Below, piece by piece: positions 25,244-28,155 of a stretch of DNA of 28,155 nucleotides (positions within the stretch are counted from its first letter, which is position 1; every line of letters starts with the position of its first letter). The DNA comes from an uncultured Lachnospiraceae bacterium (GTDB lineage Bacteria; Bacillota; Clostridia; Lachnospirales; Lachnospiraceae), in the NCBI GenBank assembly GCA_934394615.1, contig CAKRRJ010000028.1, positions 1-28,155 on the forward strand, given 5' to 3'. The notes beneath the pieces were generated by a model. It made no database searches. It was not told the origin of the DNA and saw nothing but the letters and a program-made list of their open reading frames with translations. The position numbers and the translations under genes are program-made.

Positions 25244-26146
25244 TTAGAATAACGGAACAACTGCGCCCTCGTAGGTCTGCTCCATGTACTCTTTGACTGC
25301 GTCGCTGGTCAGGGCATCCATGAGTGCTTTGGTCTTTGCGTCATCTTCCTTGCCTTCCTGAACTGCTACCACGTTGCCGTAGGTGGTTGCTGCCTCAGAA
25401 TCGGAAGCCTCTACTGCCAGAGCGTCGGATACTTTTAAGCCTGCCTCGATTGCGTAGTTGCCGTTGATAACTGCGATATCAACATCCGGAAGGGAACGCG
25501 GAACCTGTGCTGCCTCAACCTCAAGGATGTCAAGGTTCTTCGGGTTCTCTACGATATCGGTCTTGGTTGCCTTTAAGCCTGCGCCGTCAGCCAGCTTTAA
25601 CAGGCCATTTGCCTCTAACAGAAGCAGTGCGCGTGCCTCGTTGGTTGCGTCGTTCGGAACTGCTACCTTTGCGCCGTCTGCCAGCTCATCCAGGGATGCG
25701 GTCTTGCCTGCGTAAATGCCGAACGGCTCATAGTGGATCTTGCCTGCGCTGACTAACTTGGTTCCTCTCTCCTCATTGAACTGCTCCAGATACGGAAGAT
25801 GCTGGAAGTAGTTTGCGTCCAGATCGCCAGCGTCCAGTGCCAGGTTCGGCTGAACGTAGTCGGTGTACTCTACAACCTTTAAGTTATAACCCTGCTTTGC
25901 GAGTTCTTCTCTCGCTGCCTCCAGAATCTCTGCATGAGGTGCCGGGCTTGCGCCTACGGTCAGATCCTCAAGATCTCCGGTGGTCTCTTCTGCTGCCTCA
26001 CTGCTCTCTGCCTCTGCGGAAGTCTCTGCTGCCTCTGCGCTGGTCTCTGCTGCTGCAGTGGTTTCAGCCGGTTTGCTGCCGCCGCACGCGGTCAGGGCTG
26101 CTGCTGCCAGGAATGCTGCTACGATCACACCAATGTTCTTTTTCAT
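25244..26146 (-). CDS. metQ: Methionine-binding lipoprotein of the MetNIQ ABC importer
   Basis: 300 residues. A lipoprotein signal peptide (MKKNIGVIVAAFLAAAALTA, lipobox ending at C21) is followed by a low-complexity Ala/Glu/Thr/Ser linker (about 25-56) that tethers the receptor away from the membrane. The NlpA/MetQ domain begins LTVGASPAPHAEIL and contains DLDANYFQHLPYLEQF and AVINGNYAIEAGL, family-typical ligand-pocket segments. It binds extracellular methionine. The ATG at 26146 has GGAGG 9 nt upstream. It is the last gene of the operon, separated from metI by two small hairpins. I see no strong terminator in the following 120 nt. Confidence 0.93.
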   Translation of the reverse strand: MKKNIGVIVAAFLAAAALTACGGSKPAETTAAAETSAEAAETSAEAESSEAAEETTGDLEDLTVGASPAPHAEILEAAREELAKQGYNLKVVEYTDYVQPNLALDAGDLDANYFQHLPYLEQFNEERGTKLVSAGKIHYEPFGIYAGKTASLDELADGAKVAVPNDATNEARALLLLEANGLLKLADGAGLKATKTDIVENPKNLDILEVEAAQVPRSLPDVDIAVINGNYAIEAGLKVSDALAVEASDSEAATTYGNVVAVQEGKEDDAKTKALMDALTSDAVKEYMEQTYEGAVVPLF

Positions 26147-26221: not shown

Positions 26222-26887
26222 TTACCGGATTCGTTTGTCGCTCTTCTTCGCCAGTCTCATGCCAATCTCCTGGATGATCTGGACGATGATGACAAGAATG
26301 GCTACCGTTACCAGCATAATGTCTGTCTCATAACGGTAATAGCCGTAGTTGATGGCGATGCCGCCAAGTCCGCCGCCGCCGACTGCACCGGCCATAGCGG
26401 AGTAACCAAGAATGGTCGTGGTGGAGATTGCCGCTCCGATCAGAAGAGACGGCTTTGACTCCGGAAGCAATACTTTCCAGATGATCTGGAAGGTGGAAGC
26501 GCCCATGGACTTTGCCGCCTCAATGACTCCGGCATCGATCTCCTTAAAGGAAGATTCTACCATGCGGGCAATGTACGGAGCTGCCGATGCCACAAGCGGC
26601 GGTACGACTGCTCTCCAGCCAAGGCTCGTTCCCACCAGCTTTCTGGTAACCGGGATCATCATGATCAGAAGGATGAGGAATGGCACCGAGCGAAGCAGGT
26701 TAATGAGAAGTCCCAGGACTTTCTGCAGGACCGGGATCGGGCGGATGCCGTCTTTATCGGTTACCACCAGGATGATGCCAAGCGGAATTCCGATGATATA
26801 GGAAACGATGGTGGAGATGATCACCATACACAGGGTCTCTCCGATTCCGTTCCGGATCAGTTCCATGATCTGCTGACTAAATAACAT
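26222..26887 (-). CDS. metI: Methionine ABC importer permease
   Basis: 221 residues with about five membrane helices, as in MetI. The ABC-permease EAA loop is visible as EAAKSMGASTFQIIWKVLLP, followed by GYSAMAGAVGGGGLGGIAIN, a conserved D-methionine/L-methionine permease segment. It forms the membrane channel with a MetN dimer. The second ATG (26887) is preferred because GGAGG lies 9 nt upstream; the ATG at 26893 would leave only 3 nt. The gene overlaps the end of metN by 11 nt, indicating translational coupling. Confidence 0.93.
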   Translation of the reverse strand: MLFSQQIMELIRNGIGETLCMVIISTIVSYIIGIPLGIILVVTDKDGIRPIPVLQKVLGLLINLLRSVPFLILLIMMIPVTRKLVGTSLGWRAVVPPLVASAAPYIARMVESSFKEIDAGVIEAAKSMGASTFQIIWKVLLPESKPSLLIGAAISTTTILGYSAMAGAVGGGGLGGIAINYGYYRYETDIMLVTVAILVIIVQIIQEIGMRLAKKSDKRIR

Positions 26888-27896
26888 CGCCATTCACCTC
26901 CTCGTACGGTACATGCACAGTTTTTAAGTAATGCAGCGCTCTTGCCGCGTCTGCTTCATCCTCCGGAAGCTGGATGATCATCTGTCCGTAAGCCGTGCCT
27001 CCAATATCTTTGGTAGAGGCATACAGGATGTTCACCGGAACCTTGCTTGCCAGGATCATGTTGGCGAGCACCGGCTCCATAGAGGATCTGCCATCGAAGG
27101 TGATACGGATTTTTCTGGATTTATCGAACGTTACATTCTCCACGGCGTCACCCAGAATAAGCTGGCGTCCGATTTTGGACTTCGGCTCTGAGAAGATTTC
27201 CGATACCCGTCCGGATTCGGCAATCTGGCTGTGATCGATGATGGCCACCCGGTCGCAGATGGCTTCGATGACTGCCATCTCATGCGTGATGACAATGACT
27301 GTGATACCTAAATCCCGATTGATCTGCTTGATAAGCTGCAGAATGGACTTGGTAGTGTTCGGGTCCAGGGCACTGGTCGCCTCATCACAGAGAAGCACTT
27401 TCGGATTTGTGGCAATGGCTCTCGCGATCGCCACCCTCTGGCGCTGGCCGCCGGAAAGCTGTGCCGGATAGGCTTTCGCCCGGTCTTCCAGGCCAACCAG
27501 CTTTAACAGCTCCATCGCACGTTCCTTTGCCTGCTGCTTCGGCACACCCGCAATCTCCATCGGGAAGCAGACATTGCGGAGAATGTTTCTCTGCGCCAGC
27601 AGATTGAACTGCTGGAAGATCATGCCCATGGACTGTCTTGCCCTTCTCTGCGCCGCATCGCTTAACGCCGCCAGGTTTTCTCCCTCAAATAAGACTTCGC
27701 CGGAAGTTGGGATCTCCAGCATGTTGATACATCGCACCAACGTGCTCTTTCCTGCTCCGGAAAGTCCGATAATACCGAAGATCTCACCCCGGCGGATTTC
27801 CAGGTTAATGTCGTCCAGGGCTTTGACCGGCCCGTTCGCCGTCTTAAATTCCTTGCCCATGTGCTTTAACTGGATGATGGTTTCCTCTAATGCCAT
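26877..27896 (-). CDS. metN: Methionine ABC importer ATP-binding protein
   Basis: 339 residues. Walker A is GLSGAGKS (44-51), Q-loop is FQQFNLL, the signature LSGGQ is at 147-151, Walker B is VLLCDEA (about 167-173), and the H-loop is ITHE. The C-terminal part (about 255-339) is the NIL domain (VTFDKSRKIRITFDG...), which binds methionine and shuts the importer down by trans-inhibition. The start ATG at 27896 has AAAGGAAA upstream. It is the first structural gene after a Met-rich leader ORF and a perfect terminator, so transcription into it is probably conditional. Confidence 0.95.
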   Translation of the reverse strand: MALEETIIQLKHMGKEFKTANGPVKALDDINLEIRRGEIFGIIGLSGAGKSTLVRCINMLEIPTSGEVLFEGENLAALSDAAQRRARQSMGMIFQQFNLLAQRNILRNVCFPMEIAGVPKQQAKERAMELLKLVGLEDRAKAYPAQLSGGQRQRVAIARAIATNPKVLLCDEATSALDPNTTKSILQLIKQINRDLGITVIVITHEMAVIEAICDRVAIIDHSQIAESGRVSEIFSEPKSKIGRQLILGDAVENVTFDKSRKIRITFDGRSSMEPVLANMILASKVPVNILYASTKDIGGTAYGQMIIQLPEDEADAARALHYLKTVHVPYEEVNGDVI

Positions 27897-27942: not shown

Positions 27943-27976
27943 AAAAAGCCGTAAACCTGCAACAGGTTTACGGCTT
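27943..27976 (-). terminator. Intrinsic terminator upstream of metN (candidate attenuator)
   Basis: In the mRNA AAGCCGTAAACCTG (27963-27976, read on the minus strand) and CAGGTTTACGGCTT (27946-27959) form a perfect 14-bp stem with a 3-nt loop, ending in a run of five T. It lies 60 nt after the leader ORF stop codon and about 46 nt before the metN ATG, between the leader and the operon it would control. Confidence 0.88.
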
Positions 27977-28036
27977 AGAATGCGTTCTCGTTTCTGATTT
28001 TATGCTTTCTTCTATGCTCTTTCCTGACCCTGCAGA

Positions 28037-28135
28037 TTATTGATGAAATTCATTGCATACGAACATACGGCACATGTTCATCATCATGCCGCACATCATA
28101 GCCATATTCATCTGCATGGTCTTAAACTGAGTCAT
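28037..28135 (-). CDS. Methionine-rich leader peptide of the metNIQ operon
   Basis: 32 codons from ATG (28135) to TAA (28037-28039), too short for ordinary gene calling. The peptide starts MTQFKTMQMNMA and continues MMCGMMMNMCRM, then ends in FVCNEFHQ. It has 11 Met, including a triple and a double, and three Cys (15, 22, 27). GAGGA lies 7 nt before the ATG, a good SD. An intrinsic terminator and then metN follow. Such composition directly before a methionine transporter operon is the hallmark of a leader peptide sensing charged tRNA-Met. A small Cu(I)-binding Met/Cys peptide is an alternative. Only 20 nt upstream is visible, so the promoter is unseen. Confidence 0.7.
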   Translation of the reverse strand: MTQFKTMQMNMAMMCGMMMNMCRMFVCNEFHQ

Positions 28136-28155
28136 AGCTGGTTCCTCGTTTCCGT

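Follow-up and report, generated by a model that had tools for sequence, protein, structure and literature searches.

The metNIQ locus and its leader

The window, that is, the whole stretch of 28,155 nucleotides of Lachnospiraceae DNA that was analysed, carries on its (-) strand the genes metN, metI, and metQ of a methionine ABC transporter, preceded by an intrinsic terminator and, further upstream, by a short ORF rich in Met codons (Table 1). Family searches bore out the gene order metN-metI-metQ given in a preliminary description of this DNA, with MetI above its NCBIfam cut-off and MetN and MetQ below theirs. MetN is the top NCBIfam model for the ATPase, under its curated cut-off, and the NIL domain of this protein lies above the Pfam cut-off; MetQ is likewise the top NCBIfam model, under its cut-off, for the binding lipoprotein, whose start we set at an ATG within a longer ORF opening with TTG. 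The remaining elements named in that description are also present in the sequence: the 32-codon ORF with its Shine-Dalgarno sequence and 11 Met codons, the 14-bp terminator, which begins 60 nt past the leader stop codon, and the metN start at 27896, 46 nt past the terminator T-run. A consensus terminator scan, whose rule requires five T within the eight bases past the stem, did not list this terminator, in which some of the T-run belongs to the stem.

Table 1. Features of the metNIQ locus and of its leader in the window
Feature	Position	Strand	Description
Shine-Dalgarno-like sequence of the leader ORF	28140..28147	(-)	GAGGAACC, 4 nt ahead of the ATG
Leader ORF	28037..28135	(-)	32 codons, 11 Met, 3 Cys; sequence MTQFKTMQMNMAMMCGMMMNMCRMFVCNEFHQ
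Segment 1	28107..28119	(-)	CCAUGCAGAUGAA, approximately codons 7-10 (Met-Gln-Met-Asn), the first Met codons after the start
ORF-internal hairpin P0	28062..28097	(-)	core CGGC..GCCG
Segment 2	28020..28037	(-)	AUCUGCAGGGUCAGGAAA, at or just past the stop codon; consensus of the relatives approximately CUGUAUGGAUUGUGA
Segment 3 of the antiterminator	~27959-27976	(-)	5' arm and loop of the terminator
Intrinsic terminator 3:4	27943..27976	(-)	14-bp hairpin AAGCCGTAAACCTG-TTG-CAGGTTTACGGCTT and T5 run
metN	26877..27896	(-)	ATPase of the methionine ABC transporter; contains a NIL domain
metI	26222..26893	(-)	permease; NCBIfam NF008049, 213.3 bits (curated cut-off 212)
metQ/NlpA type	25244..26146	(-)	binding lipoprotein; PF03180, 301 bits, above cut-off

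The Met density of the leader ORF is not expected by chance, because it reaches 11 Met per 25 residues, the maximum for a short ORF upstream of this metN, whereas none of the 3330 dinucleotide shuffles made from 111 upstream regions has seven or more per 25 residues. The leader RNA of the window is also more stable than all of 200 shuffles (z -5.6). The window holds just 20 nt 5' of the leader ORF, and the promoter and any further upstream elements were judged from the relatives: of the 67 leaders with 150 nt available upstream, 65 have a sigma-70-like promoter in that stretch, compared with 78 of 1340 mononucleotide shuffles. Purine-rich stretches resembling Shine-Dalgarno sequences, read by eye, occur at the equivalent place in the leaders of the relatives.

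Conservation of the leader among relatives

MetN relatives were drawn from a collection with one genome per species, of which we kept the best 80 of 518, with up to 800 nt of upstream sequence. A related short ORF with at least five Met precedes metN in 69 of these 80 loci, a proportion that describes close relatives and should not be read as a family-wide frequency. In all 70 leaders, window included, the ORF is followed by a hairpin with a T-rich tail, in a search run without shuffle control and with the terminator of one locus (L006) reassigned by hand, the automatic choice having been a farther hairpin. As counted from the rows, it lies 53-82 nt past the stop codon in 58 of the 70 leaders, and anything from 24 to 306 nt separates it from metN. 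The preliminary description had proposed to look for just such an arrangement upstream of metN in relatives, a conserved Met-enriched short ORF and then a terminator.

The consensus leader peptide is MxxxxxMQMNMxMMNGMxxMCRMFxCxK (63 peptides, obtained from the 70 leaders by trimming those longer than 36 aa to 36 and removing duplicates; some start codons were shifted to an internal Met by rule). The first Met after the start is codon 7 in 58 of 70 leaders, and Met makes up 28% of the residues after the start, against a background of 2.9%. Six or more Met were found within 400 nt before metN in 66 of 81 loci (window included), compared with 1 of 71 loci for a control stretch 900-1300 nt upstream. 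The residue between the Met codons of segment 1 varies (Asn, His, Asp) around a constant Met, two loci (L053 and L065) having MQMHM.

Eleven of the 80 loci have no leader. Five of them carry a T-box instead (see below), and two were set aside, their contig ends cutting the sequence upstream of metN at 138 and 215 nt (L019 and L077). In three others (L056, L062, and L063), metN follows closely behind an apparent coding sequence, as judged by eye. The last one, L005, is a close relative in which the region of up to approximately 180 nt upstream of metN retains, also by eye, promoter-like and terminator-like remains and no Met ORF, an apparent loss of the leader. This is the kind of case that the preliminary description held to speak against its reading, a relative without the ORF in which the terminator is kept; it was found in L005 alone, the ORF being kept in the 69 loci mentioned above. 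No Met ORF was found in L005, L056, L062, L063, or L135 despite their placement among leader-bearing MetN rows, nor in L108 and L123, whose places in the tree are unsure.

With a profile of the peptide, the leader was detected in at least 13 of 299 genomes at the family level, including five already-known carriers (G001, G005, G008, G010, and G011), and in at least 2 of 391 at the class level, one of them the centre genome G001; both counts are lower bounds, as the profile missed a clear family member (L130, in genome G031). In all 12 genomes chosen as carriers there is one strong match to the leader (E <= 6.5e-8), at the coordinates of the metN leader, and two of the 12 have a second, weak match (E ~0.7-0.9).

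Coding constraint on the leader ORF

In the nucleotide alignment of the 70 leaders (columns 4-69), all 37 gap runs are multiples of three. Over its 2189 codons, internal ATG triplets number 617 in frame, as against 12 and 41 in the other two frames. A crude pN/pS of 0.43 was obtained from 245 close pairs; these are mutually dependent and also include stretches of paired RNA. These data support coding constraint on the leader ORF, the codon-level conservation that the preliminary description had proposed to test for. None of the four leader peptides tried had a Pfam match, and NCBIfam gave nothing useful for the same four, with a single chance-level match for one of them.

Alternative RNA pairings in the leader

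Segment 1, on the first Met codons, pairs with segment 2 (UUCAUCUGUAUGG), at or past the stop codon. Among the 69 distinct rows, and with gap cells set aside, 80.7% of the cells of this helix 1:2 (13 pairs) are paired; in the window, it has a 7-bp core UGCAGAU/AUCUGCA. The hairpin P0 inside the ORF is paired in 96.5% of cells, with changes on both sides at four of the five pairs counted, and the terminator 3:4 in 92.2%, with changes on both sides at 8 of 13 pairs. In one case within P0 (L020), a double change, Asn to Lys together with Arg to Pro, keeps the pair. Combined, the three helices are paired in 88.4% of cells compared with 35-43% when slid, a comparison that favours them in that the counted helices were drawn from one row (L038). 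They contain 129 cells changed on both sides, against 39.5 in shuffles and reached by none of 500, an excess that is inflated by the relatedness of the rows.

In the relatives, segment 2 is complementary to terminator arm 3 as well as to segment 1. The resulting antiterminator 2:3, exclusive with the terminator, is paired in 85.1% of cells compared with 26-41% when slid, a comparison that again favours a helix drawn from L038. Its covariation is modest, with 13 cells changed on both sides against 5.2 in shuffles (reached by 9 of 500) and a covariation score reached by 39 of 500 shuffles, and 2:3 is the weakest of the pairings. Duplex z scores below -2, relative to shuffled intervening sequence, were obtained for 1:2 in 42 and for 2:3 in 26 of the 70 leaders; those of the window are weak, at -1.4 and -1.2, respectively. 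RNAalifold predicts P0 and the terminator, and neither 1:2 nor 2:3. Taken together, the pairings read from the alignment fit elements 1:2, 2:3, and 3:4 like those of the trp leader, plus a covarying hairpin inside the ORF.

This RNA pairing also bears on whether the ORF encodes a small functional protein, perhaps a metal-binding one, whose gene merely lies ahead of metN and ends in an ordinary terminator. Met and Cys bind soft metals, the peptide is rich in both, and the ORF is under coding constraint, all of which would suit such a protein. Nevertheless, the pairing joins the ORF in cis to the region past its stop codon, so that a free-standing protein is unlikely; its only database hit is the chance-level one mentioned above, it occurs as a single copy, at metN, in all 12 genomes chosen as carriers, and a T-box occupies the same place in a nested clade. 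We therefore hold this explanation to be very improbable.

A proposed attenuation mechanism

The conserved coding ORF, its Met codons, the terminator before metN, and the alternative pairings across relatives together support the attenuator interpretation advanced in the preliminary description. In our judgement, it is quite likely that the leader controls metNIQ by ribosome-mediated transcription attenuation, with charged tRNA-Met as the signal sensed. With ample methionine, the ribosome would reach the stop codon, segment 2 would not be holding arm 3, and the terminator 3:4 would form. With scarce elongator Met-tRNA, the ribosome would stall on the first Met codons, where it would cover segment 1, melt P0, and free segment 2. 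The freed segment 2 could then capture the terminator's 5' arm (2:3), and polymerase would continue into metNIQ. In an untranslated leader, 1:2 and P0 would be expected to form, leading to termination. Such an attenuator would most likely turn on methionine import when methionine runs short.

A thermodynamic simulation of stalling, in which codons 1-11 plus 12 nt were masked and 2:3 was counted in a transcript without arm 4, provides partial support for this switch. The mean number of expected 2:3 pairs over the 70 leaders rises from 4.0 in the free transcript to 7.1 in the simulated stall, with a gain of more than two pairs in 31 leaders and a loss of more than two in eight; in the window it rises from 0.0 to 2.6. 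With the ribosome at the stop codon the mean is 4.2, not below that of the free transcript. In the full-length transcript at equilibrium, 3:4 keeps a mean of about 10-11 pairs (10.0-10.8) in all three states, and therefore the switch would have to be kinetic, with the antiterminator acting during transcription. Counting against the attenuator reading, initiation too is limited when methionine is short, and this would switch the leader off.

Methionine T-boxes in place of the leader

S-box and T-box RNAs are the usual devices for methionine control in this phylum. At the Rfam gathering score, we found neither S-box (RF00162) nor T-box (RF00230) in the window, no Rfam match in the 17 of the 69 leader-bearing loci that were scanned (the run covered 28 of the first 80 loci), and no S-box or T-box in four further leader-bearing loci (L121, L122, L124, and L130), in agreement with the preliminary description, which had seen no motif of either kind in the leader. 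An S-box or T-box was rejected for the window also in a permissive scan, which gave just families under the gathering score, the top one, on the opposite strand, being Spd-sr07 (35.5 bits against 55, E 5.7e-4). A different explanation, that the leader is a riboswitch or a protein-binding RNA and that translation of its ORF is incidental, would account for the conserved RNA structure. Since no Rfam family reaches its gathering score here, and the in-frame ATG triplets far exceed those of the other frames and the gap runs keep to multiples of three, we regard it as the least probable of the explanations considered.

In contrast with the leader-bearing loci, seven loci have an RF00230 T-box and no leader upstream of metN (L024, L068, L069, L078, L080, L118, and L136), corresponding to 5 of the 28 loci scanned among the 80 and 2 of 30 others. 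Alignment to RF00230 places the specifier loop GAAC-AUG-G in L068 and L024; the same string is present in L069, L078, L080, and L136, and L118 has GAAG-AUG-G. By T-box convention, we take AUG to be the specifier triplet in these loops. In a MetN tree of 108 rows (111 less three identical ones), all T-box rows except L118 fall into an eight-row group (support 98/85), together with L056 and the cut locus L077. Ten genes with the leader form the sister of this group (join 100/96), which is nested among other leader carriers. One Met-tRNA sensor thus appears to have replaced the other before orthologous metN genes, and from the nesting, in a tree with a midpoint root, we infer that the direction was from leader to T-box. 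Such a swap would be a natural experiment on the replacement of an RNA sensor with its signal kept. A Met T-box resembles the proposed leader in reading tRNA-Met and controlling termination, and differs from it in binding the tRNA directly, in having no ORF, and in being absent from the leader-bearing loci scanned.

All 12 carrier genomes have one SAM riboswitch above cut-off, located before a metK motif, as found by scoring 149 candidates per genome out of 169-558, so that others could be missed; in the three cases checked, NCBIfam confirmed the identity of metK. By this model, SAM would be read at metK and Met-tRNA at metNIQ, which suggests how Lachnospiraceae such as Hungatella, Lacrimispora, and Enterocloster may regulate the uptake of methionine.

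Comparison with known leader peptides

The leaders of the trp, his, thr, and ilv operons are ribosome-mediated transcription attenuators. The Met leader shares with them a short ORF with many codons for the amino acid under regulation, a stop codon near segment 2, the alternative pairings 1:2, 2:3, and 3:4, and an intrinsic terminator before the operon. Unlike them, it would sense an amino acid whose tRNA also starts translation, it precedes a transporter operon, and it has an extra covarying hairpin inside the ORF. The mechanism itself is known; on our best reading, what is new here is an attenuator of the trp type for methionine with an additional hairpin in the ORF. Only for methionine does a shortage affect initiation as well, and a leader of Met codons therefore poses the question, which this system makes testable, of whether elongator tRNA-Met can run low while initiation still works.

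A Leu-rich attenuator has reportedly been described in Staphylococcus aureus. Leaders for His and for branched-chain amino acids in Firmicutes represent the same kind of attenuation, directed at other amino acids and operons. PMC2965389 describes hisS and hisZ leader peptides in Firmicutes as well as exchange between leaders and T-boxes, and mentions that in Lactobacillus sakei a methionine transporter is preceded by a T-box. Closest in its target operon is metL, a leader peptide proposed before metNIQ in Streptomyces lividans (PMC8079986), so that the idea put forward in the preliminary description has a precedent. In the open PMC literature covered here, we recognised no other Met-codon attenuator for metNIQ. 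The metL peptide, likened here by its description, resembles the Met leader in having Met and Cys near the C-terminus (..CMCRRMCAF), and differs in having just two Met after the start and a leaderless transcript; its authors found no typical Rho-independent terminator (passages of PMC8079986). It is a weaker proposal, comparative evidence being absent from those passages. A survey of Actinobacteria reports that methionine operons there are not preceded by a conserved RNA structure (PMC1262725).

Other methionine-rich leaders and cysteine

A further 30 metN loci came from the 57 of 120 family genomes that were NIL-positive; eight of these loci have an ORF with at least five Met per 25 residues. 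Three are repeats of known carriers (L121, L122, and L124) and one, L130, belongs to the main leader family. The other four, L110/L117, L119, and L125, have Met-rich ORFs before metN that are unlike the main leader. Hairpins with T-rich stretches lie behind the ORF in the five non-repeat loci; in L110, a later hairpin had been picked automatically, and a better one is visible in the sequence. L110 and L125 are weak alone, because five or more Met were reached by 86 of 3330 shuffles, whereas L117 (8 Met) and L119 (7 Met) are above all shuffles.

These unlike leaders have little in common with the main leader beyond their richness in Met and Cys, a point that bears on nascent-peptide arrest. Arrest peptides include SpeFL and TnaC, the latter stalling in response to Trp; by analogy with TnaC, the peptide (MQMNM..GM..MCRMF.C) could stall in the exit tunnel on Met or SAM and so control the terminator. 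In favour of arrest, the majority consensus includes residues other than Met (Q8, N10, G16, C22, and R23), and C22 is invariant in the 63 peptides. However, much of this non-Met conservation coincides with the pairing segments, Q8-N10 with segment 1 and C22-R23 with P0; one column pair (48/65) is invariant and hence uninformative. P0 also shows compensating codon changes (the double change in L020 and Arg/Cys exchanges), and in the nested clade the leader's place is taken by a T-box, which senses tRNA. Arrest is less likely because of the location of these residues and because the unlike leaders have little but Met and Cys in common with this one; we judge it improbable.

Returning to the attenuator reading, the leaders may respond to more than methionine. 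All 70 main leaders have at least two Cys, and Cys accounts for 13.1% (206/1572) of their non-Met residues against a background of 1.5%, some of these Cys being tied to P0 pairing and the rows being related. In the four unlike leaders, two of which are mutually related, the share is 11.9% (12/101). One possible, rather doubtful extension is that the leader acts as a gauge of sulfur amino acids that reads both Met-tRNA and Cys-tRNA, and that leaders with this property evolved repeatedly in front of metNIQ within the Lachnospiraceae, in exchange with the Met T-box.

The leader of L119 (genome G036) is a Met/Cys-rich ORF located 465 to 315 nt upstream of metN and ending in MNMMMCCGHMCGSMYMAYCCACYDT, followed by a hairpin and a T-run. 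A search with its peptide gave matches in 22 of 299 family genomes at E <= 0.1, convincing in its own genome only (1.5e-19, the next being 8.6e-4). L110 and L117, with five and eight Met, respectively, represent a second leader type with a common C-terminus, VYFPAP, and a search for this type found 2 of 299 family genomes, its two source genomes. Elsewhere in the window, a pyridoxal-enzyme-like ORF at 1628-2602 on the (-) strand, presumably a relative of D-cysteine desulfhydrase/ACC deaminase, may be another gene of sulfur metabolism.
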